Below, in pieces: positions 33,822 through 55,829 of a DNA stretch of 64,000 nucleotides. How positions within the stretch are numbered: position 1 is the stretch's first letter; every line of letters starts with the position of its first letter. Source of the DNA: a virus; IMG/VR virus record IMGVR_UViG_3300047462_000185, positions 42,638 through 106,637 of that record; one strand, written 5' to 3'. The translations under genes and the position numbers were made by a program. Under the pieces are notes generated by a model. The model did no database searches. It saw only the letters and a program-made list of their open reading frames with translations, and had not been told where the DNA came from.

Positions 33822-36398
33822 ATGAACCTGCCGGATGGTGTGGCCGAGATCAGGGACACGCTGCTCGCCAACGAGATCGCGATCCAGCGCGAGCTGGGCC
33901 GGCGCTCGTTCTACGACTTCTACAAGATGGCGTGGCCCGAGCTCGATCCGGCCCCGTTCGTCGACAATTGGCACATCGGGCTGATCTGCGACGAGTTACA
34001 GGCCGCGGCGCGCCGCGAGGTGCTGAACCTGTGTATTGCAATTCCGCCAAGGCACAGCAAGCCTGTGCATGAGGATGAGCCGGTTCTCACTGCCCGAGGA
34101 CGTATTTCATTGCGCGAAGTGGTGGTGGGCGATTTCGTTCTGACCCACATGGGACGCTTTCGGCGAGTCGAGGCGGTTCACATCCAGGGCGAGTTGCCTA
34201 CGCTCACGGTGCGCGCCTGGTCAGGTCGCGCTGCCCGTATGGCACCTGACCATCCTCTGCTGACGGCGCGTGGGTGGGTGCAAGCCCAGCATTTGGTTGC
34301 GGGTGACAGGGCAGCGGTCGCACGCATCGATGAGCAATGTGGGCAGGATACCGTCTCGGCCGAGGAGGCGCGACTTCTGGGCTATCTGGTGGGTGATGGA
34401 TCATGCACTCACTCGGCAATCAACATCACAGCTCTAGATGAGACTGAAATTGCCGATATCCAGGCATGCGCCAACACCCTCGGGATCGGGACGTCCATCA
34501 CACGCAAAACAAAGACCGCAGCGGTCAAAGTCGGATTACTCAATGACAGACTGAAAAACCGATGCGGTGCTGCGCATCAGCTTATCGATCGTGCTGGCCT
34601 CACGGGCAAGAATAGCTACACGAAGCGAGCTCCGCCTTCGATTATGGCCGCAACGCAGCGCATCATCGCCGAATTCCTGGCCGCCTACTGGGCCTGCGAT
34701 GGGTATATCGCGAAACGGGGCTTCCTAAAGGACGGTAGAATTCGAACTGATGTCTGTGTCGGTTGCGACACGGTCAGCCGAGAGTTGGCGCTCGATGTCC
34801 AGCATTTGCTTTATCGGCTGGGCGTAAACTCTCGCGTCAGGACGAAGGTAGCGAAGATCAAGACTAGGAAACAGGGTAGCGACACTTACACATCGTATTC
34901 CGTCTCGATGACGTCAGCTGATGATGTCGCGCGTTTTGCGTCGGCGGTCACAATTCCGCACGCCAAGCAAGCTCTCCTTGACCGACATAAGGGGCGCACA
35001 GACTTCGATAGGCCGCTCTGGCGCGATGAGATTGTGGCAATCGAGCAGAGTGAACCCGCGCCATGTCGATGCCTGACGGTTGATGAGGATCAAAGCTTCA
35101 CCGCAGGCGACCTGGTGGTCCACAACAGCCTGCTCTGCTCCGTGGCGTTCCCGGCCTGGGTGTGGACCTGGTGGCCCGCGGCCCGCTTCATCACGTCGAG
35201 CTACGATGTGGTGAAGCTCGCGATGCGGGACGCGCTGGCGGCGCGCCGGCTGGTGACCAGCGACTGGTATCAGACGCGCTTCCCCGAAGTGAAGCTGGCG
35301 GCCGATCAGAACGTCAAGAGCTTCTACCAGACCACGGCGGGCGGGGCGCGGTTCGCCTGTAGCCCGACGGCCGGCCTCACCGGTCATGGCGCCGATTTCG
35401 CGATGTTCGACGACCCGCACAACGTCACGAAGGGTGAGTCCGAGAAGGATAGGGACAGGGCCAGGACGTTCTGGTTCGAGGCCATGTCGCCCCGGTTCAA
35501 CAACCCGTCTCACGGGGTGCGGATCGTGGTCCAGCAGCGCGTCAACGAAGCTGACGTCGCGGGCGAGTGCATCCGGCGCGGCTATCATACAGTAGTTTTG
35601 CCGGCCCGGTTCGAGCGCGACCATCCGCAGCGCTCGCCTCGGGATCCGCGCCAGGTCGAGGGTGAGTTGCTTTGGCCCGACAAGTTCTCCGATGCGGATG
35701 TCACCAAGCTCGAAAAGGACATGGGGCAGTTTGCCGCGGCGGGCCAGCTGCAGCAGCGTCCCGTGCCGCGCGAGGGTGGGCTGTTCAAGCGCCACTGGTT
35801 CGAGATCGTGGACGCGGCGCCGGCGACGCAGCGCAGGGTCAGGTCGTGGGACCTGGCCGCATCCGAGAAGAAGGTCACGTCGAGCGATCCGGACTACACC
35901 GTGGGTCTGCTCATGTCGCTGTGCGACGGCGTCTACTACATCGAGGATGTGAGGCGTGACAGGCTCTCGCCGCACGGCGTCGAGCTGATGATCACGAACA
36001 CGGCCAAGCAGGACGGCAAAGGGGTGAGGATCAGGTTCCCGCAGGACCCGGCCCAGGCCGGCAAGTTCCAGGTCCGCTATTACGTGACGCAGTTGGCCGG
36101 GTGGATGCTGCACATCGAGCAGGAGACCGGAGACAAGGTGACGCGTGCCGATCCGTTCTCGAGCCAGGCCGAGGTTGGGAATGTGAAGCTGGTCAAGGGC
36201 GCATGGAACGAGGATTTCCTGTCGGAGATCGCGATATTTCCTGGGGGTGCGCACGACGACCAGGTCGATGCGGCGACGGGCGCGTTTCGGGCCCTGACGA
36301 GCGGCACGACGGGGATCATCGACTTCTACCGGCAGCAGATCGCGGCGCGTGACGCGGCGCGTGACGCGGCACGGGGTCCGGGCGACGGCACACGATAG
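33822..36398 (+). CDS. terL: terminase large subunit with in-frame intein, 858 aa
   Basis: Extein parts: residues 1-80 end at the ATPase Walker A region IAIPPRHSK; residues 436-858 continue SLLCSVAFPAW, Walker B (FAMFDDPH), and the RNase H-like nuclease (RSWDLAASEK, DPDYTVGLL, GGAHDDQVDAATGAF). Removing the 355-aa intein leaves a normal TerL of 503 aa. It translocates and cuts DNA during head filling. The intein sits in the most conserved catalytic loop, the usual place for such elements. Confidence 0.97.
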   Translation: MNLPDGVAEIRDTLLANEIAIQRELGRRSFYDFYKMAWPELDPAPFVDNWHIGLICDELQAAARREVLNLCIAIPPRHSKPVHEDEPVLTARGRISLREVVVGDFVLTHMGRFRRVEAVHIQGELPTLTVRAWSGRAARMAPDHPLLTARGWVQAQHLVAGDRAAVARIDEQCGQDTVSAEEARLLGYLVGDGSCTHSAINITALDETEIADIQACANTLGIGTSITRKTKTAAVKVGLLNDRLKNRCGAAHQLIDRAGLTGKNSYTKRAPPSIMAATQRIIAEFLAAYWACDGYIAKRGFLKDGRIRTDVCVGCDTVSRELALDVQHLLYRLGVNSRVRTKVAKIKTRKQGSDTYTSYSVSMTSADDVARFASAVTIPHAKQALLDRHKGRTDFDRPLWRDEIVAIEQSEPAPCRCLTVDEDQSFTAGDLVVHNSLLCSVAFPAWVWTWWPAARFITSSYDVVKLAMRDALAARRLVTSDWYQTRFPEVKLAADQNVKSFYQTTAGGARFACSPTAGLTGHGADFAMFDDPHNVTKGESEKDRDRARTFWFEAMSPRFNNPSHGVRIVVQQRVNEADVAGECIRRGYHTVVLPARFERDHPQRSPRDPRQVEGELLWPDKFSDADVTKLEKDMGQFAAAGQLQQRPVPREGGLFKRHWFEIVDAAPATQRRVRSWDLAASEKKVTSSDPDYTVGLLMSLCDGVYYIEDVRRDRLSPHGVELMITNTAKQDGKGVRIRFPQDPAQAGKFQVRYYVTQLAGWMLHIEQETGDKVTRADPFSSQAEVGNVKLVKGAWNEDFLSEIAIFPGGAHDDQVDAATGAFRALTSGTTGIIDFYRQQIAARDAARDAARGPGDGTR
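34062..35126 (+). other. intein with LAGLIDADG homing endonuclease in terL
   Basis: Residues 81-435. Block A reads P-VHEDEPVLT with Pro where Cys or Ser is usual; block B APDHPLLTARGW; endonuclease motifs LLGYLVGDG and FLAAYWACDG (LAGLIDADG pair); block F CRCLTVDEDQSF with Cys at the position normally Asp; block G VVHN followed by Ser. Extein joins as HSK/SLL. The non-nucleophilic residue 1 plus block F Cys points to a class 3-like splicing mechanism. Confidence 0.9.
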
Positions 36399-42460: not shown

Positions 42461-42722
42461 TGCACCTTCTTTTTTCGAGCGGGCCGTCTATTGGCCGACT
42501 TGCTTCAAGTGCCGCAAGCGCGTCGATCAGATCACGGCCAACTATGATCATGAGCATGGCGTGCTGCGGCTCGAAGCCGAGTGTCACGGCGAGCGCGACA
42601 CGGAGGTCGTTTCCATTCCTAAAGGCGCAACGCCGACGATCTTGCTGCGCTGGCAGATGAACGAGGGCTTCGCGTTCACCTGGATTTCCCCTTCATATCG
42701 AGGAGCTTTTCTCAATGACTGA
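42450..42722 (+). CDS. unknown small protein, 90 aa
   Basis: GTG start inside the end of the LuxR gene. CFKCRKR near residue 18 may bind metal with later His/Cys (ECHGERD). Strand-rich C-terminal half. No family recognised. Confidence 0.65.
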   Translation: MPDDAPSFFERAVYWPTCFKCRKRVDQITANYDHEHGVLRLEAECHGERDTEVVSIPKGATPTILLRWQMNEGFAFTWISPSYRGAFLND

Positions 42723-44787: not shown

Positions 44788-44825
44788 ATGGGACACCGTG
44801 TCCCATGCCCTGGTGTCCCATGCCC
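44788..44825. promoter_or_regulatory. palindrome and direct repeats before the integrase
   Basis: ATGGGACAC-C-GTGTCCCAT (44788-44806, 9-bp arms) plus the direct repeat GTGTCCCATGCCC at 44798-44810 and 44813-44825. The integrase start lies inside. Candidate arm-type or AlpA-binding sites, or an integrase autoregulation element. Confidence 0.6.
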
Positions 44826-46025
44826 CTCACCGACGTTCAGGTCCGCAAGGCCAAGCCGCGCGACAAGCGCTACCGCCTGGCCGACGGTGATTGCCTCTCC
44901 CTCCTGGTGCTGCCCAGCGGGGTGAAATCGTGGCGCTTCCGTCGAGTCAGGGGTGGCGTCGAGCAGGTCCAGACCCTCGGCCAATACCCGGACATGAGCC
45001 TGATCGCGGCCCGCCGGCGGCGCGACGAGCTGCTCGACGCGCCGATCGCCGGCTCGGCCGTCTCACCCCCGCTGCGCGACGTGGCGCGGGCATGGCACAC
45101 CGCCCAGGCGCCAATCTGGAAGCCGGGCCACGCCCGCGACGTCTGGACCGACCTGGAGCGGGAGATCTGGCCCAAGCTGGGCGACAAGCCGCTCTCGACG
45201 ATCACCAGGCCCGAAATCCTGGCCGTGTTGCAGCCTATCCAGGACAGGGGCGCGGTCGACCTGGCGCACCGGCTGCGCCAGCGACTGACCGACATCTGGG
45301 GCTTCGCGATCCAGGGCGGCGCGCCGGTGAGCAACCCGCTGGTCGGCATGGAGCGCGCCATGACGAAGCTGATCCAGCGCGGCCGCCGGCCCGCCGCGCT
45401 GACGCTCGAGGGCGCGCGGCAGGTGCTGGGCCGGGTCGACCGAATCCCGGCGCACCCGATCACGCGGTTCGCGGTGCGCCTGCTCGCCCTGACCGCGTTG
45501 CGCCCTGGCGAGTTGCGCCTGGGCCGCTGGGAGGACCTGACCGACCTGGATGGCGACGAGCCGATCTGGCGCGTCCCGCCGCTGCGCATGAAGCACAAGC
45601 TGGTCGACCAGCTCGACCAGCACGAGCACTTGGTGCCGCTGTCCCGGCAGACCGTGGCGCACCTGCGGGCGCTGCACCGGCTGACCGGCAAGACCCCGCT
45701 GATGTTCCATTCCTGGCTGGCGCGCGGCAATCCGCTGACCGAGGACGGCCTGATCCGGATCCACCAGCGCGCCGGGCTGTCAGGGGTGCAGGTGCCACAC
45801 GGCTGGCGCGCCACGTTCAGCACGATCATGAACGAGCGCTACGGGGCGGATTACAGCGTGATAGAGCTGATGCTGGCCCACAAGCCGAAGGACCAGGTCG
45901 CGGCGGCCTACAACCGGGCGCAGCACATGGCGCGCCGCCGCGAGTTGGCGCAGCGCTGGGCCGACCTCCTCATGATCGGGTTGCTGGAGCCGGAGCAGCT
46001 GGTGGAACTGCCTCGACGGGGTTGA
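44820..46025 (+). CDS. int: tyrosine integrase (P4-like)
   Basis: MPLTDVQVRKAKP is the standard start of P4-type integrases with an N-terminal DUF4102 domain. Catalytic residues visible: Arg in ALRPGELRLGRW, His/Arg in HGWRATF, His in MLAHKP and nucleophile Tyr in VAAAYNRA. It integrates and, with AlpA, excises the prophage. An ATG at 44805 is an alternative start. The attachment site itself was not identified. Confidence 0.95.
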   Translation: MPLTDVQVRKAKPRDKRYRLADGDCLSLLVLPSGVKSWRFRRVRGGVEQVQTLGQYPDMSLIAARRRRDELLDAPIAGSAVSPPLRDVARAWHTAQAPIWKPGHARDVWTDLEREIWPKLGDKPLSTITRPEILAVLQPIQDRGAVDLAHRLRQRLTDIWGFAIQGGAPVSNPLVGMERAMTKLIQRGRRPAALTLEGARQVLGRVDRIPAHPITRFAVRLLALTALRPGELRLGRWEDLTDLDGDEPIWRVPPLRMKHKLVDQLDQHEHLVPLSRQTVAHLRALHRLTGKTPLMFHSWLARGNPLTEDGLIRIHQRAGLSGVQVPHGWRATFSTIMNERYGADYSVIELMLAHKPKDQVAAAYNRAQHMARRRELAQRWADLLMIGLLEPEQLVELPRRG

Positions 46026-50757: not shown

Positions 50758-50832
50758 GGGGGCGTAGCTCAGCGGGAGAGCACTGGTCCTGCAAACCGGG
50801 TGTCGTCGGTTCGAGTCCGACCGCTTCCACCA
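50758..50832 (+). tRNA. tRNA-Ala(TGC)
   Basis: Full cloverleaf with encoded CCA. Acceptor contains the G3-T70 pair that marks alanine tRNAs. Anticodon loop CCTGCAA; base 33 is C instead of the usual T. Confidence 0.88.
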
Positions 50833-50836
50833 CTAT

Positions 50837-50911
50837 GCGGCTGTAGCTCAGAGGTAGAGCACCTGCTTGCCAAGCAGGATGTCGAGGGTTCGATTCCCTC
50901 TGGCCGCTCCA
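50837..50911 (+). tRNA. tRNA-Gly(GCC)
   Basis: Acceptor GCGGCTG/TGGCCGC, anticodon loop TTGCCAA, canonical T loop TTCGATT, encoded CCA. Confidence 0.93.
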
Positions 50912-50940
50912 TATTGCGTGTCCCGATTGGGACGATAGTT

Positions 50941-51015
50941 GCGCTTGTAGCTTAATGGTAGAGCCGGCTGCTCATAACAGCCTCGGTGCCCGTTCGACCC
51001 GGGCCGGGCGCACCA
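50941..51015 (+). tRNA. tRNA-Met(CAT)
   Basis: Acceptor GCGCTTG/CGGGCGC, anticodon loop CTCATAA between GGCTG and CAGCC, encoded CCA. A lysidine-modified Ile decoder is an alternative for CAT. Confidence 0.9.
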
Positions 51016-51034
51016 TTTGGCTCGCGCAGGAGAT

Positions 51035-51110
51035 AGCGGGGTAGACTGGAGGCGGTTCCAGCTAGGTCTCATAAGCCTAAGAGGGTGGTTCGATTCCACC
51101 CCCGCTACCA
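51035..51110 (+). tRNA. tRNA-Met(CAT), initiator-like, irregular
   Basis: Acceptor AGCGGGG with CCCGCT, anticodon loop CTCATAA, T loop TTCGATT, CCA. One C seems missing at the T-stem/acceptor joint and the D arm is unusual (CTGG/CCAG). The GGGG acceptor resembles initiator tRNAs. Confidence 0.7.
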
Positions 51111-51114
51111 AATT

Positions 51115-51189
51115 GCCGATGTAGCTCAGTGGTAGAGCGCCGCTTTGAAGAAGCGGGCGTGGGTGGTTCAATTCCATCCGTCGGCACCA
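51115..51189 (+). tRNA. tRNA-Phe(GAA)
   Basis: Acceptor GCCGATG/CGTCGGC, anticodon loop TTGAAGA, T loop TTCAATT, CCA. Confidence 0.93.
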
Positions 51190-51193
51190 CGAT

Positions 51194-51269
51194 GCGGCGC
51201 TAACACTCTGGGGAGTGTGTCTGCCTTCCAAGCAGTTCCAGACGGGTTCGATCCCCGTGCGCCGCTCCA
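51194..51269 (+). tRNA. tRNA-Gly(TCC)
   Basis: Acceptor GCGGCGC/GCGCCGC, anticodon loop CTTCCAA, T loop TTCGATC, CCA. Confidence 0.92.
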
Positions 51270-51331
51270 TCTAGCCGGGAGTGCTCCATTTTGCACGTCC
51301 GCGCCACGGTGCGGTCCGGCGGCCATTTCGA

Positions 51332-51408
51332 TCCGGTCGGTCCATAATGGCAATGGAACGAGACTGTTAATCTCGACGCTGCTGGTTCGAATCCAGCGAC
51401 CGGAGCCA
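51332..51408 (+). tRNA. tRNA-Asn(GTT)
   Basis: Acceptor TCCGGTC/GACCGGA, anticodon loop CTGTTAA between CGAGA and TCTCG, discriminator G, CCA. Confidence 0.93.
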
Positions 51409-51412
51409 GTTT

Positions 51413-51486
51413 GGGAGTCAAGTGTTACGGTAGCACGACCGGCTCCAACCCGGTTAGCGTGGGTTCAACTCCTACGACTCCTGCCA
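51413..51486 (+). tRNA. tRNA-Trp(CCA)
   Basis: Acceptor GGGAGTC/GACTCCT, anticodon loop CTCCAAC between ACCGG and CCGGT, discriminator G, CCA. Confidence 0.92.
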
Positions 51487-51490
51487 AATT

Positions 51491-51566
51491 GCGTCGCGAG
51501 CCAGACGGCAGAGGCGTTCCGCTGCAAACGGAAAAACACCGTGTTCAATTCACGGGCGGCGCTCCA
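51491..51566 (+). tRNA. tRNA-Cys(GCA)
   Basis: Acceptor GCGTCGC/GCGGCGC, anticodon loop CTGCAAA between TTCCG and CGGAA, discriminator T as in cysteine tRNAs, CCA. Confidence 0.92.
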
Positions 51567-51573
51567 ACTCGAT

Positions 51574-51649
51574 GGTGACGTGAGTCAGCCGGCGTGGACG
51601 GCCCGCTGTGACCGGGTCTAGATGGGTTCAACTCCCATACGTCACCCCA
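51574..51649 (+). tRNA. tRNA-His(GTG)
   Basis: Encodes the extra G at position -1 opposite C73, the histidine identity pair. Acceptor GTGACGT/ACGTCAC, anticodon loop CTGTGAC, CCA. Confidence 0.93.
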
Positions 51650-51653
51650 ATTT

Positions 51654-51728
51654 GCCGGATTAGCACAGCGGAAGTGCAGTGGTTTTGTAAACCGAAGGTC
51701 AGGAGTTCGAATCTCCTATCCGGCTCCA
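51654..51728 (+). tRNA. tRNA-Thr(TGT)
   Basis: Acceptor GCCGGAT/ATCCGGC, anticodon loop TTTGTAA, T loop TTCGAAT, CCA. Confidence 0.92.
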
Positions 51729-51737
51729 GTTTCATGA

Positions 51738-51811
51738 TCCCCGGTCGTCTAATGGCAGGACATCGGATTCTGGATCCGAGGGTTGTGGTTCGAGTCCATG
51801 CCGGGGAGCCA
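51738..51811 (+). tRNA. tRNA-Gln(CTG)
   Basis: Acceptor TCCCCGG/CCGGGGA, anticodon loop TTCTGGA between TCGGA and TCCGA, discriminator G, CCA. Confidence 0.93.
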
Positions 51812-51819
51812 TTGAAACA

Positions 51820-51833
51820 CACACTTCGATGTG
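51820..51833 (+). promoter_or_regulatory. operator palindrome CACAC-TTCG-ATGTG
   Basis: Preceded by AAA and placed 14 bases before the HNH gene inside the tRNA array, suggesting the HNH gene has its own repressor-controlled promoter. Confidence 0.6.
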
Positions 51834-51847
51834 TTATTGCCGTTTTA

Positions 51848-52159
51848 ATGAAGATGCGCACCGATCGCAGTCAGATCAAGGAAATGCTTCGAAGAGGCGT
51901 TTCATATTCGAAGATCACTGCTAAGACGGGCGCAACAAAAGGCACGCTCAGCTACATAGCAAAGAGCAGTGGAAAACCTCTAACGCTTCGTCTTGATCAT
52001 TTCGATGGTGATGGAGGAAATCACGACATTGAAAACCTACGGTTCATATGTCCCAATTGCGATAGCCAATCTCCAACTTACGGACACAGAAACCGCGGGC
52101 GTTACGCTCGGCTTGGGGTTAAGCTTTCAAGTGTGCAGGGTAGCCACACCGCGTTTTGA
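51848..52159 (+). CDS. HNH endonuclease within tRNA array, 103 aa
   Basis: N-terminal HTH-like part (IKEMLRRGVSYSKITAKTG) and C-terminal HNH core (LDHFDGDGGNHDIENLRFIC, then CPNC-like). The order HTH then HNH is typical of free-standing homing endonucleases. Composition is AT-richer than neighbours, a sign of separate origin. Its 3' end overlaps an irregular tRNA-Gln. Confidence 0.78.
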   Translation: MKMRTDRSQIKEMLRRGVSYSKITAKTGATKGTLSYIAKSSGKPLTLRLDHFDGDGGNHDIENLRFICPNCDSQSPTYGHRNRGRYARLGVKLSSVQGSHTAF

Positions 52160-52198
52160 GCGCGGAAGCAAGGGGTTCGACTCCTCGGCCCCAAACCA
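52113..52198 (+). tRNA. tRNA-Gln(TTG), irregular
   Basis: Acceptor TTGGGGT/GCCCCAA, anticodon loop TTTTGAG between CCGCG and CGCGG, T loop TTCGACT, CCA. About nine extra bases separate the acceptor from a GTGT/ACAC D stem, and the HNH reading frame runs into its 5' half. It may be degenerate. Confidence 0.65.
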
Positions 52199-52202
52199 GT
52201 TT

Positions 52203-52277
52203 CGCCCATTCGTTCAATGGCAGGACAACCGATTCTCGATCGGTCAACGCGGGTTCGATTCTCCGCATGGGCGACCA
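52203..52277 (+). tRNA. tRNA-Glu(CTC)
   Basis: Acceptor CGCCCAT/ATGGGCG, anticodon loop TTCTCGA between ACCGA and TCGGT, CCA; T loop appears one base long. Confidence 0.85.
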
Positions 52278-52280
52278 GTT

Positions 52281-52362
52281 GCGCGTGTGGCGGAACGGTA
52301 GACGCGGCCCCCTTAAAGCGGGCTGTCTCGGCGTGCAGGTTCGATTCCTGTCGCGCGCACCA
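52281..52362 (+). tRNA. tRNA-Leu(TAA)
   Basis: Acceptor GCGCGTG/CGCGCGC, anticodon loop CTTAAAG, long variable arm as expected for leucine, CCA. Confidence 0.9.
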
Positions 52363-52376
52363 ATCAGGAGCAGCAC

Positions 52377-52571
52377 ATGAGTGATCGCGATGTCCCGCTG
52401 CACACCTACGAGCTGATCTATCGAGACGCCAATGTGAAGCGACAGCGCATGCGCGTCGCCGGCGGCTGGATCTACTCGTGCTCGCTGCTTAGCTCGACCG
52501 GCAGCGTGGCAATTTCGGAAGTTTTGGTTCCAGATGCTCGCGTGGGCCAACAGGTAGAGTCAGCACGTTGA
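52377..52571 (+). CDS. unknown small protein, 64 aa
   Basis: Start MSDRDVPLHTYELIYRD with AGGAGCAGCAC. The core VAGGWIYSCSLLSSTG...AISEVLVPD resembles small strand-rich phage proteins. The last 12 codons lie inside tRNA-Leu(GAG), so the original 3' end was probably replaced. Confidence 0.6.
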   Translation: MSDRDVPLHTYELIYRDANVKRQRMRVAGGWIYSCSLLSSTGSVAISEVLVPDARVGQQVESAR

Positions 52572-52612
52572 GAGCGTGTCCAGTGCCGGTTCGAGTCCGG
52601 CCGCGAGCACCA
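52536..52612 (+). tRNA. tRNA-Leu(GAG), short variable loop
   Basis: Acceptor GCTCGCG/CGCGAGC, anticodon loop TTGAGAG between GCACG and CGTGT, CCA. The variable loop is five bases, not the long arm expected for leucine. Confidence 0.8.
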
Positions 52613-52616
52613 GATT

Positions 52617-52693
52617 GCGGGGATGGGCAAATCGGTAAAGTCGCTGCGTTCAGACCGCAAGGTGTGGGCTTCGAATGCACCCGCTCTCCGCCA
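52617..52693 (+). tRNA. tRNA-Leu(CAG), short variable loop, irregular
   Basis: Acceptor GCGGGGA/TCTCCGC, anticodon loop TTCAGAC between TGCG and CGCA. T stem is poor and the 3' end lacks a clear discriminator. It resembles the neighbouring GAG tRNA, a likely duplication. Confidence 0.7.
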
Positions 52694-52696
52694 AAT

Positions 52697-52785
52697 GGAA
52701 GGTGAAGTCGGCAGGAGCCGGCCGCCCGTTCGAAACGGGAGGAGACCCGCGAGGGTCAGGGGATCAAGACCTCCGCCTTCCGCCA
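52697..52785 (+). tRNA. tRNA-Ser(CGA)
   Basis: Acceptor GGAAGGT/GCCTTCC, anticodon loop TTCGAAA, long variable arm, discriminator G and CCA fit serine. The T loop ATCAAGA is atypical. Confidence 0.85.
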
Positions 52786-52789
52786 GCTT

Positions 52790-52878
52790 GGATCGTGCCG
52801 GGGGTTGGCTCCCCCAGCGGGTTGCTAACCCGTGGCTCCCCTCCGGGGATGAGGGTTCGATGCCTTCACGATCCGCCA
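52790..52878 (+). tRNA. tRNA-Ser(GCT)
   Basis: Acceptor GGATCGT/ACGATCC, anticodon loop TTGCTAA, long variable arm CTCCCCTCCGGGGA, discriminator G, CCA. Confidence 0.9.
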
Positions 52879-52879
52879 T

Positions 52880-52955
52880 GCCCCGTTAGCAGAGTGGCTA
52901 ATGCGCGTCCTTGGTAAGGACGAGATCGCCGGTTCGATTCCGGCACGGGGCTCCA
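52880..52955 (+). tRNA. tRNA-Thr(GGT)
   Basis: Acceptor GCCCCGT/ACGGGGC, anticodon loop TTGGTAA, canonical T loop, CCA. Confidence 0.93.
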
Positions 52956-53041
52956 TACGACCAGCCGTTTGCACCACGCCTGAGCCGGCCGCGGCCTGAT
53001 GGGGCCGGACGCTTTCGCGAACGGGTGTGGCAGGCTGTGCT

Positions 53042-53126
53042 GGGCAGGGACAGCCGGTGGCTCCGGCGAGCGGCCTGTAAAGCCGTGCCCTTCGGGGGAG
53101 AGGATCGAAACCTCACCTGCCCACCA
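53042..53126 (+). tRNA. tRNA-Tyr(GTA)
   Basis: Acceptor GGGCAGG/CCTGCCC, anticodon loop CTGTAAA, long variable arm (TGCCCTTCGGGGGA), discriminator A, CCA, as for bacterial tyrosine tRNAs. Confidence 0.9.
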
Positions 53127-53128
53127 TT

Positions 53129-53203
53129 GCTCGCGTAGCTCAATGGCAGAGCAGTCGGTTGATAACCGACCGACGATGGGTTCGATTCCCACCGCAAGCA
53201 CCA
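53129..53203 (+). tRNA. tRNA-Ile(GAT)
   Basis: Acceptor GCTCGCG/CGCAAGC with one C-A mismatch, anticodon loop TTGATAA between GTCGG and CCGAC, CCA. Confidence 0.88.
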
Positions 53204-53214
53204 GATCACGAGAA

Positions 53215-53290
53215 ACACCGGTAACTCAGAGGCCAGAGTGCTGTCCTTTTAAGTCAGAGGTCGCGGGTTCGAATCCCGTCCGGTGTTCCA
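53215..53290 (+). tRNA. tRNA-Lys(TTT)
   Basis: Acceptor ACACCGG/CCGGTGT, anticodon loop CTTTTAA, T loop TTCGAAT, CCA; one T-T mismatch in the anticodon stem. Confidence 0.85.
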
Positions 53291-53363
53291 TGAATTCCTC
53301 GCGGACGCGCGGGGCGCTGCATTCCGCGATAGGTCCAAAGAGCACGCGGGTGCAGCTGGATTT

Positions 53364-53437
53364 GCTCGCATCTTTCAGTGGCAGGAAGCTGGATTGTCGA
53401 TCCGGTAACAGGGGTTCGATCCCCCTTGCGAGCGCCA
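53364..53437 (+). tRNA. tRNA-Asp(GTC)
   Basis: Acceptor GCTCGCA/TGCGAGC, anticodon loop TTGTCGA, discriminator G as in aspartate tRNAs, CCA. Confidence 0.92.
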
Positions 53438-53568
53438 TAAAGCCGCTTCATCAAATCGGCGCGCCATCTACCTGCCGCTTGCCGAGGCGCGGCGAGGGTC
53501 AAACCGAAGCCGAGGGGTGCGACCCGCCCCGAAGCCTGGGGCTCGCCCGCCACGGCAAGCAGCAGTTT

Positions 53569-53644
53569 CAGGGCGTAGGACAGTGGCCAGTCCGCCTGCT
53601 TCGGGAGCAGGAGATCGTGAGTTCGAATCTCACCGCCTTGACCA
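53569..53644 (+). tRNA. tRNA-Pro(CGG)
   Basis: Acceptor CAGGGCG/CGCCTTG with the C1-G72 pair typical of proline, anticodon loop TTCGGGA between CCTGC and GCAGG, CCA. Confidence 0.9.
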
Positions 53645-53652
53645 TTTTCGTT

Positions 53653-53725
53653 GTCCTCGCCTGCGGATCAGGCGCCGGCACTCCTAATGCTGGGTGCGCC
53701 GGTTCGAATCCGGCCGGGGACGCCA
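53653..53725 (+). tRNA. tRNA-Arg(CCT)
   Basis: Acceptor GTCCTCG/CGGGGAC, anticodon loop CTCCTAA, CCA. Its D arm, T arm and flanks are close to tRNA-Arg(CCG) at 54651, indicating duplication. Confidence 0.88.
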
Positions 53726-53726
53726 A

Positions 53727-53801
53727 CAGGATGTAGCTCAATGGGAGAGCACCGCGTTTGGGGCGCGGGGGCTGGTGGTTCGAGTCCACTCATCCTGACC
53801 A
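53727..53801 (+). tRNA. tRNA-Pro(TGG)
   Basis: Acceptor CAGGATG/CATCCTG, anticodon loop TTTGGGG between CCGCG and CGCGG, discriminator A, CCA. Starts one base after the previous tRNA. Confidence 0.9.
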
Positions 53802-53804
53802 ATT

Positions 53805-53879
53805 GCGTGCATAGCTCAGCGGGAGAGCGCTCCGTTCACACCGGGGATGTCGGGAGTTCAATCCTCTCTGCACGCACCA
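53805..53879 (+). tRNA. tRNA-Val(CAC)
   Basis: Acceptor GCGTGCA/TGCACGC, anticodon loop TTCACAC, discriminator A, CCA. Confidence 0.92.
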
Positions 53880-53951
53880 GTTCGGGGGGCACAGTCCCGC
53901 CCGTGGGGCACGGTCCGACCCGGAGAACCGGTCGGCCGCGAAGCTATCGTT

Positions 53952-54026
53952 GCGCGCCTAGCTCATCGGGAGAGCGTCGCTTTGACATAGCGAAGGCGGC
54001 CGGTTCGATTCCGGCGGCGCGCACCA
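53952..54026 (+). tRNA. tRNA-Val(GAC)
   Basis: Acceptor GCGCGCC/GGCGCGC, anticodon loop TTGACAT between TCGCT and AGCGA, discriminator A, CCA. Confidence 0.92.
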
Positions 54027-54039
54027 GCTACCGCTCCGG

Positions 54040-54312
54040 CGGTTATGGCTGTAACGGCCTGGATGGAATGCCGACCTGGACCCGGGGGCAGCGCCCGGCG
54101 TCTCCACCAAGGGGGACGACGCAGATCTCGACAGGTCGATCAAAGATCCAGGCTCAGCCCGGCAAGGAACGGCCGGCAATCTGTCCGCATGAGAAATGCC
54201 AATGACAACACTGGCATGGGAGCGGTGCGCCTCGCGGCGTAACCACCCGGCGCCCTGAGGGGGGCGTGGCAACAGCAGGGGCGGCCCTCGAAAGGTCGCC
54301 CCACCCTCGCCT
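54040..54312 (+). ncRNA. ssrA: circularly permuted tmRNA
   Basis: The acceptor piece comes first: T-arm-like CCGGG-GGCAGCG-CCCGG then CGTCTCC-A-CCA (54099-54109). Two bases later the coding piece begins with GGGGACG (54112-54118), which pairs perfectly with CGTCTCC. The tag frame, GCC AAT GAC AAC ... GCG GCG TAA at 54198-54242, encodes ANDNTGMGAVRLAA. Permuted two-piece tmRNAs are typical of alphaproteobacteria. It would rescue stalled ribosomes and tag proteins for proteolysis. Outer limits are approximate. Confidence 0.88.
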
Positions 54313-54316
54313 ATTC

Positions 54317-54392
54317 GGGGCTGTGGCGCAGCTGGGAGCGCGTCTGCATGGCATGCAGAAGGTCGTCGGTTCGATTCCGACCAGTTCCACCA
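54317..54392 (+). tRNA. tRNA-Ala(GGC)
   Basis: Acceptor GGGGCTG/CAGTTCC with the alanine G3-T70 pair, anticodon loop ATGGCAT between TCTGC and GCAGA, CCA. Confidence 0.92.
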
Positions 54393-54396
54393 AATT

Positions 54397-54470
54397 GCCG
54401 CGGTCGAATAAGGTAGTTCACCGGTCCTTCAAATCGGTCGGCGCGGGTTCAAATCCCGTCCGCGGCACCA
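54397..54470 (+). tRNA. tRNA-Glu(TTC)
   Basis: Acceptor GCCGCGG/CCGCGGC, anticodon loop CCTTCAA with C at position 33, T loop TTCAAAT, CCA. Confidence 0.85.
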
Positions 54471-54495
54471 ACCGTTTCCATATTGGAAAGTGTTT

Positions 54496-54568
54496 ACCCC
54501 TGCCGATGGCTCTCGGGCTCTGCGCTACGAACGTGGAAGAGCTGGTTCGATTCCAGTCAGGGGTTCCA
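54496..54568 (+). tRNA. tRNA-Arg(ACG)
   Basis: Acceptor ACCCCTG/CAGGGGT, anticodon loop CTACGAA, T loop TTCGATT, CCA. Confidence 0.88.
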
Positions 54569-54574
54569 GATCAT

Positions 54575-54646
54575 GCGGCGGCCGCCGAGCCGGGCCATGG
54601 CCTTCTAAGCCGAGGGAGGTGGGGCAAGCACCCACCCGCCGCACCA
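54575..54646 (+). tRNA. tRNA-Arg(TCT)
   Basis: Acceptor GCGGCGG/CCGCCGC, anticodon loop CTTCTAA, CCA. T loop GCAAGCA departs from TTCRANY, so T-loop modification and elbow packing would be unusual. Confidence 0.82.
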
Positions 54647-54650
54647 GCTT

Positions 54651-54723
54651 GCTCTCGCCTGTGGATCAGGCGCTGACCCTCCGAAGGTCGGACGCGCCGG
54701 TTCGAATCCGGCCGAGAGCTCCA
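54651..54723 (+). tRNA. tRNA-Arg(CCG)
   Basis: Acceptor GCTCTCG/CGAGAGC, anticodon loop CTCCGAA between TGACC and GGTCG, CCA. Paralogue of tRNA-Arg(CCT). Confidence 0.9.
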
Positions 54724-54818
54724 GCAAGGGACCGGGTCGCGTGCGAGCGTGTCTCCCGGGACAAAGTCGATGCCGAGACGCGAGCCCCGGCATGGTCCCT
54801 CACAGCGGCGGCGCGACC

Positions 54819-54893
54819 GGCTGACGACGAGCGTGGAATGCAGTCCCGAGATGCCGCGCGGGGCAGGCCGTTCGATACGGCTAGTCGTCAGCC
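54819..54893 (+). other. tRNA-like structure, probably degenerate
   Basis: Perfect 10-bp closing repeat (GGCTGACGAC, 54819-54828; GTCGTCAGCC, 54884-54893) around a canonical T arm (GGCCG-TTCGATA-CGGCT, 54866-54882). No convincing anticodon arm or CCA. A decayed tRNA or a tRNA-mimic RNA. Confidence 0.45.
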
Positions 54894-54910
54894 AAACCGC
54901 CCAAAATCGG

Positions 54911-54935
54911 CGAAAAATATTCCTGGAAATATTCC
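54911..54935. repeat. tandem GGAATATTT-type repeat, reverse orientation
   Basis: On the minus strand: GGAATATTTCC then GGAATATTTTTCG, matching the tandem repeat after the repressor gene at 23409. AT-rich island in a GC-rich array. Confidence 0.5.
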
Positions 54936-54943
54936 AGATCGTT

Positions 54944-55025
54944 GCGGGCGTGGCGGAAAGGTAGACGCGGCCGGCTCAAACCCGGCTGATCATTCGTGCA
55001 GGTTCGAATCCTGTCGCTCGCACCA
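54944..55025 (+). tRNA. tRNA-Leu(CAA)
   Basis: Acceptor GCGGGCG/CGCTCGC, anticodon loop CTCAAAC between GCCGG and CCGGC, long variable arm, discriminator A, CCA; normal leucine type. Confidence 0.92.
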
Positions 55026-55031
55026 TTTCAT

Positions 55032-55119
55032 GGACCAGTGCGCCGAGTGGCGAAGGCAGCCGACTCTTAATCGGATGGGCGAAAGCCCCGCGTGAGTTCG
55101 AATCTCACCTGGTCCTCCA
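55032..55119 (+). tRNA. tRNA-Lys(CTT) with long variable arm
   Basis: Acceptor GGACCAG/CTGGTCC, anticodon loop CTCTTAA, CCA. The variable arm is a long stem (GGGC-GAAA-GCCC), a feature of Leu/Ser/Tyr tRNAs and not of lysine. Charging identity is therefore uncertain. Confidence 0.82.
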
Positions 55120-55121
55120 AT

Positions 55122-55196
55122 GCCCGTGTAGCTCAATGGCAGAGCAGCCGCCTCGTAAGCGGCCGACGAGCGGTTCGATTCCGCCCACCGGCTCCA
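55122..55196 (+). tRNA. tRNA-Thr(CGT)
   Basis: Acceptor GCCCGTG/CACCGGC with one C-C mismatch, anticodon loop CTCGTAA between GCCGC and GCGGC, CCA. Last tRNA of the array. Confidence 0.88.
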
Positions 55197-55244: not shown

Positions 55245-55829
55245 ATGCGTGCCAGAAACTCCGCCCTCGACCTGGAAGCGCTCGTCCTCAACGCTGACGC
55301 GCGGCCGCTCTCGACCTGGCCGCTCAGCAAGGAAAGCGCACGCGACGCCATCACCGCCGTGATGAAAGGCAACGTCGAGGTGGTCGACACCTGGGACGCC
55401 GTGATCCGCACGCCGCGCATCGAAATCCCGGTGCCGAAGGTCATCATGCTGCGCTACTACGCGCCGATCCGGGCCGAGCCGAAGTTCTGCCGGGCCAGCG
55501 TGTTCCTGCGCGACAGGTTCAAGTGCCAATACTGCGGCGAGCCGTTTCCGCGCGAGCAGTTGACCTACGACCACGTCATCCCGCGCACCAAGGGCGGCCA
55601 GACCGTGTGGGAAAACATCCTGACCTGCTGCGAGACCTGCAACGCGCTCAAGCGCGACCGGCCGGCCAACTGGAGCGGCAGGCGCGGCGCCGGCGAGATG
55701 CGTCCGCTCAAGGCGCCTCGGCGCCCCAGCACGGCCGAACTGCTCCGCGCCGGGCTCGATCTGCTCGACCAGGAGACGCGGGAGACCTGGGGCGACTGGC
55801 TCTACTGGAACGCCGAGCTGAAGGCCTAA
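55245..55829 (+). CDS. HNH endonuclease, 194 aa
   Basis: Core CQYCGEPFPREQLTYDHVIP, then GGQTVWENILTCCETCN: two zinc CxxC pairs and the DH of the HNH fold. This is the common stand-alone phage/bacterial HNH family (length fits) with an N-terminal beta domain. It lies directly after the tRNA array; it may be a homing nuclease or assist packaging. Confidence 0.93.
   Translation: MRARNSALDLEALVLNADARPLSTWPLSKESARDAITAVMKGNVEVVDTWDAVIRTPRIEIPVPKVIMLRYYAPIRAEPKFCRASVFLRDRFKCQYCGEPFPREQLTYDHVIPRTKGGQTVWENILTCCETCNALKRDRPANWSGRRGAGEMRPLKAPRRPSTAELLRAGLDLLDQETRETWGDWLYWNAELKA

Follow-up and report, generated by a model that had tools for sequence, protein, structure and literature searches.

A permuted tmRNA gene is located in a phage tRNA gene array

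A tmRNA gene is located in the analysed window, a stretch of 64,000 nucleotides covering positions 42,638 to 106,637 of a 106,637-base IMG/VR virus record. It is flanked by a tRNA-Val gene that ends at position 54026 and a tRNA-Ala gene that starts at 54317, and the surrounding array of tRNA genes covers all 20 amino acids (Table 1). The same record encodes a large terminase, a portal protein, a primase-helicase, a RecE-like exonuclease, a ParB-like protein and a tyrosine integrase. The initial annotation had described the tmRNA as phage-borne, and the terminase, portal, primase-helicase and integrase genes on the same contig confirm this. An intein that contains a LAGLIDADG domain splits the large terminase gene (33822-36398), and an HNH endonuclease gene (55245-55829) lies after the tRNA array. 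The tyrosine integrase gene (44805-46025) suggests a temperate phage. A promoter scan of the tRNA array revealed no sigma-70-like site.

Table 1. Elements of the permuted tmRNA gene and the tRNA array that encloses it (window coordinates)
Feature	Position	Strand	Basis or remark
tRNA gene array enclosing the tmRNA gene	50758-55196	+	all 20 amino acids; ARAGORN at relaxed threshold
Permuted tmRNA gene	54028-54316	+	outer limits set by neighbouring tRNA genes; RF01849, RF04321, ARAGORN
Acceptor piece (mature 3' part, encoded first)	54028-54109	+	5' hairpin, P2 strands, T-arm, acceptor 3' strand, A, CCA; alpha_tmRNA alignment, fold
5' hairpin of acceptor piece	54030-54043	+	alpha_tmRNA alignment, fold
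P2 helix strand, acceptor piece	54047-54078 (54047-54051, 54056-54064, 54072-54077)	+	pairs with 54133-54159; folds, consensus pairs
T-arm, stem CCGGG/CCCGG, loop GGCAGCG (54087-54093)	54082-54098	+	ARAGORN; alpha series GGCRGYR
Acceptor stem 3' strand CGTCTCC	54099-54105	+	
Discriminator A	54106	+	
Encoded CCA	54107-54109	+	
Intervening spacer AG, 2 nt	54110-54111	+	
Coding piece (mature 5' part, encoded second)	54112-54316	+	acceptor 5' strand, P2 strand, tag frame, 3' hairpins; alignment, fold
Acceptor stem 5' strand GGGGACG, third pair G3:U70	54112-54118	+	
P2 helix strand, coding piece	54133-54159	+	folds, alpha_tmRNA alignment
Tag reading frame, stop TAA, resume codon GCC	54198-54242	+	tag ANDNTGMGAVRLAA; ARAGORN
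3' region, two GC-rich hairpins	54250-54302 (54250-54267; 54278-54302)	+	folds
Conserved GCAACAG	54269-54275	+	between the two 3' hairpins

The gene is an intact alpha-type two-piece tmRNA

Two Rfam models match the gene far beyond chance. The alpha_tmRNA model (RF01849) aligned to positions 54030-54242 with 112.4 bits (E 7.3e-30, gathering threshold 50) and the tmRNA_permuted model (RF04321) to 54047-54242 with 99.6 bits (E 3.5e-18, gathering threshold 47). ARAGORN likewise called a permuted tmRNA (score 102), with the same tag frame. The two models and the tmRNA finder thus bear out the two-piece permuted, alphaproteobacterial type that had been proposed. The ARAGORN span (54017-54333) runs into both tRNA-Val and tRNA-Ala; it appears to be a padded range, the true gene lying between them. 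Two-piece tmRNA was described in Caulobacter (Keiler 2000, as cited in PMC9004378).

The elements that had been read from the sequence between 54040 and 54312 were all found in place: CGTCTCC, the single A, CCA, AG, GGGGACG, the T-loop and the tag frame with its stop. The order is permuted, with CCA and the acceptor 3' strand upstream of the acceptor 5' strand, and the tag frame is open, has an alanine resume codon and ends with AA and the stop. Only AG separates CCA from G1, in agreement with a spacer of about two bases, and the T-loop, thought to be alpha-like, fits the alpha-type series. The acceptor strands had been called perfectly complementary. All seven base pairs indeed form, but the third is a G-U pair and not a Watson-Crick one.

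This third pair, between G54114 and U54103, is G3:U70, the identity pair of alanyl-tRNA synthetase, and strengthens the identification. G3:U70 was present in 291 of the 292 permuted tmRNAs that we collected. The acceptor stem was fully paired in nearly all of the distinct sequences (163/165), and four different complementary pair types occurred at each of the positions 5:68 and 6:67. This covariation, together with the full pairing, is strong evidence from sequence comparison that the stem would form whatever the length of the spacer.

The alpha_tmRNA match of the window gene covers only model positions 40-270 of 355. Positions 271-355, the 3' domain, lie outside the match, while the GCAACAG motif, which also occurs 3' of the tag in most relatives compared, is retained. 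At 112 bits the gene also scores much lower than bacterial short-spacer genes do with the same model (214-249 bits). The partial match and the low score indicate that the 3' domain of the window tmRNA is divergent. RF04321 covers the tRNA domain only, so that a 3' domain is not required for it (PMC11915505). These results support an intact, phage-borne, circularly permuted two-piece tmRNA of the alpha type.

The phage likely infects an alphaproteobacterium

The best relatives of the terminase are from Rhizobium phages (about 41% identity over about 400 amino acids), and further relatives, at no more than about 41% identity, belong to Caulobacter, Brevundimonas and other alphaproteobacterial phages. 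These relationships make an alphaproteobacterial host likely. Placement in a family by the terminase was rejected, the best match of about 41% identity including no named close relative. Relatives of the portal and of a 1047-amino-acid protein were found on five contigs (37-67% identity), none of which carried a permuted tmRNA (0/5). A blastn search with the tmRNA alone against known phages returned only short chance-like matches and no near identity. A search for the codon pattern encoding MGAVRLAA found it neither in 398 genomes of the Camelimonas order nor in viral contigs, and the tag match to a Microvirga plasmid (see below) therefore does not settle the host.

No match to the SmpB family (PF01668) was detected in the 106,637-base record, which may be incomplete. 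The record thus holds a tmRNA without smpB, not a complete phage-encoded trans-translation system, and the tmRNA would rely on host SmpB.

Two-piece tmRNAs occur in other phages

The initial annotation had taken known phage tmRNAs, such as those of cluster C mycobacteriophages, to be of the one-piece kind. This is contradicted by a 2022 survey of 18,146 genomes, in which two-piece forms made up 53 of the 133 distinct tmRNA structures from phages; the paper also describes one in the Methylophilales phage Melnitz (PMC9004378). A further collection lists, across all forms, 79 unique tmRNA sequences from bacteriophages (PMC11915505). We found permuted tmRNAs in the cultured phages MD18, DSS3_MAL1, RcXuper, RpAliso, Cp1R7A-A1, RcRudolph, RcSimone-Hastad, Lacusarx, CcrPW and XacN1, which speak equally against a one-piece rule. 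In DSS3_MAL1 and Sphingobium phage Lacusarx the gene is annotated as ssrA. MD18, RcXuper, RpAliso, Cp1R7A-A1, RcRudolph, RcSimone-Hastad, CcrPW and XacN1 are without tmRNA annotation, and the RcRudolph gene is partly overlapped by an annotated hypothetical protein. The 98-nt spacers of MD18 and DSS3_MAL1 have a T-arm-like GGTTCGAAACC hairpin at the end, inside a long stem, and look somewhat tRNA-like; ARAGORN called no tRNA within them. A two-piece tmRNA in a phage is as such already published, and a claim of novelty on this ground is mostly not supported.

The two-base spacer is rare but not unique

A pattern scan of viral contigs yielded at least 61 ARAGORN-supported permuted genes with spacers of 0-8 nt, the window gene included. 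Among the viral matches listed, one spacer had 0 nt, two had 2 nt (the window gene and locus L104) and two had 3 nt, while most had 4-8 nt. When 0-30 nt were allowed, 6 of the 82 viral genes among the matches listed had spacers of 8 nt or less; both scans demand exact motifs, and their counts are not population frequencies. From alphaproteobacterial genomes we took a class-wide sample of about 150 listed matches, from which the ten shortest matches were picked deliberately, plus others. In this selection one gene had a spacer of 2 nt (L383) and two had 3 nt (L382, L388). The neighbours of L383 (also L431) have matches to ThyX, Band-7 proteins (two genes), a DegP-like protease and fumarase, which makes L383 a cellular gene. 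In total, spacers of 0-3 nt were found in seven other unrelated records, bacterial genome contigs among them. One viral gene (L035, 6943-7126) has no spacer at all, CCA being followed directly by GGGGCTG; it scored 111 bits with tmRNA_permuted and 108 bits with beta_tmRNA.

A spacer of 2 nt is therefore rare, not unique. The initial annotation had concluded that processing must differ in this case. The spacers of 0-8 nt in at least 61 viral loci, and the 2-nt spacer AC of the cellular gene L383, lend no support to anything special here: different processing is unproven and, if real, not special to this phage.

The short spacer probably arose by loss of a hairpin

The relationships of 63 permuted tmRNAs were analysed in an unrooted tree from which the spacer was left out. 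The window tmRNA fell into a clade (99/93) with plasmid tmRNAs of Microvirga and Methylobacterium, those of phages RcRudolph and RcSimone-Hastad, and the viral sequence L050. It sits on a long branch (1.06) and has an atypical base composition, which makes the exact placement unsure. The plasmid and Rhodobacter-phage members of the clade have spacers of 83-98 nt, each forming one long hairpin. Several other cultured phages have hairpin spacers of the same design, in which TGAT or a similar sequence immediately precedes G1. Methylobacterium radiotolerans pMRAD01 and Microvirga sp. VF16 pMVF16-2 each carry a permuted tmRNA gene that clusters with those of phages, and a lineage of tmRNAs on mobile elements is possible.

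Eight independent changes on the tree were required to account for the eight sequences whose spacers have 3 nt or less, and a single grouping of all eight was rejected (p 2e-5), which indicates that the short spacer was reached repeatedly. A constraint placing the window gene together with the bacterial L383 (2 nt) was not rejected (p 0.17). Judged by its nearest relatives, the window gene probably lost a hairpin spacer of the kind they carry, although the tree is unrooted and a count of changes on it is no proof of the direction.

Proposed maturation and alternative readings

The reading that we consider very probable is that of an intact alpha-type phage tmRNA which lost its hairpin spacer, is cut by RNase P, charged with alanine and bound by SmpB, and rescues ribosomes stalled during infection. 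The tmRNA would most likely be co-transcribed with the enclosing tRNA array. In the precursor, a loop of six bases, A-CCA-AG, is predicted to close the acceptor stem. The cut between 54111 and 54112 would be made by an endonuclease that generates the 5' ends of tRNAs, most likely RNase P of the host, and host 3' exonucleases would trim the leftover AG back to CCA. The P2 helix, through its strand at 54133-54159, would hold both pieces together after cutting. Charging with alanine would proceed via G3:U70, and the mature tmRNA would bind host SmpB, rescue stalled ribosomes in infection and add the degradation tag ANDNTGMGAVRLAA. Since charging of a tRNA requires a free CCA end, some cut is needed if the tmRNA works.

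Maturation by another enzyme or in another order than in long-spacer tmRNAs, for instance with both ends produced by one cut within the acceptor loop, is possible but rather unlikely. A spacer of 0-2 nt leaves little room for two separate cuts, and in the viral gene without a spacer one cut would yield both mature ends. RNase P may cleave a loop of only six nucleotides poorly. The same problem was flagged as unsolved for the permuted tRNA-Tyr of the archaeon T. pendens, with its 1-nt spacer (PMC3978253). Against this, the ordinary tmRNA pathway, with RNase P for the 5' end and exonuclease trimming for the 3' end, suffices on paper (PMC3968760): applied to the AG spacer it would mean one cut before G54112 and the removal of two bases. 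Bacterial genes are short-spacered as well, so that nothing phage-specific is needed. More generally, near-spacerless permuted tmRNAs might be opened by one acceptor-loop cut that gives the 5' end and a CCA end with little or no trimming, phages and some bacteria having repeatedly deleted the long hairpin spacer; we regard this as doubtful.

It is improbable that the window tmRNA is a decaying or captured host fragment without function in the phage, as might follow integration at a host ssrA gene. The tyrosine integrase at 44805-46025, the known use of ssrA genes as integration sites (PMC9004378, PMC11915505) and the divergent 3' domain would fit such an origin. Integration, however, would usually leave a fragment and not a whole gene within a tRNA array, whereas here the gene has all its parts (both strands of the acceptor stem, G3:U70, CCA, P2, an open tag ending in LAA, and GCAACAG), and every related copy in phages and plasmids is intact. 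That the RNA is a decoy which titrates host SmpB instead of acting as tmRNA we hold to be highly improbable. A TLD-only form is reported from mycobacteriophage DS6A, and a molecule of this type strongly inhibits tmRNA (PMC4131195, PMC11915505), yet the tag frame, the resume codon and the structure of the coding piece, all retained here, would be of no use to a decoy. Just as implausible is an assembly or amplification artefact that dropped a long hairpin spacer: the source is one IMG/VR virus contig, hairpins are prone to loss and the nearest relatives have them (83-98 nt), but spacers of 0-3 nt recur in the seven unrelated records, bacterial genome contigs included, and the Rfam permuted models accept short-spacer genes.

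Comparison with known systems

How an acceptor loop is opened with almost no spacer is a question common to the window gene and the other short-spacer genes. With spacers ranging from 0 to more than 100 nt and a repeated origin of short ones, it can be tested with natural variants. The T. pendens tRNA-Tyr is a different case: it is an archaeal tRNA, is re-ligated to one piece and, as a permuted gene, is not homologous to the window gene. With the Rfam RF01849 and RF04321 genes the window gene shares the permuted order, the G3:U70 acceptor, the encoded CCA, the alpha-type T-loop, P2 and an ANDN...LAA tag. It differs from them in its 2-nt spacer (mostly 10-40 nt in the sampled bacterial genes), its divergent 3' domain and its position in a phage tRNA array. 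The cellular gene L383 has the identical acceptor stem CGTCTCC/GGGGACG and also a 2-nt spacer (AC), but, unlike the window gene, a full-length alpha model match (249 bits).

A phage-borne permuted tmRNA with a complete tag is common to the window phage, Melnitz, DSS3_MAL1 and Lacusarx, whereas the spacers of the latter three are far longer (142, 98 and 74 nt, respectively). The window gene is a well-defined addition to the two-piece tmRNAs of phages, located inside a 20-amino-acid tRNA array, and a tmRNA in a full array is in line with the view that phages of this kind bring a translation maintenance kit of their own. Its nearest neighbours on the tree are plasmid-borne and come from Microvirga sp. 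VF16 and Methylobacterium (H98, H92). The Microvirga tag ANDNVDMGAVRLAA is identical to the window tag in 12 of 14 residues and differs in two, while the plasmid spacers, each one long hairpin, measure 91 nt in Microvirga and 83 nt in Methylobacterium against 2 nt in the window gene. What is mildly new is that the window gene groups with the hairpin-spacer tmRNAs of plasmids and Rhodobacter phages, having itself probably lost the hairpin.
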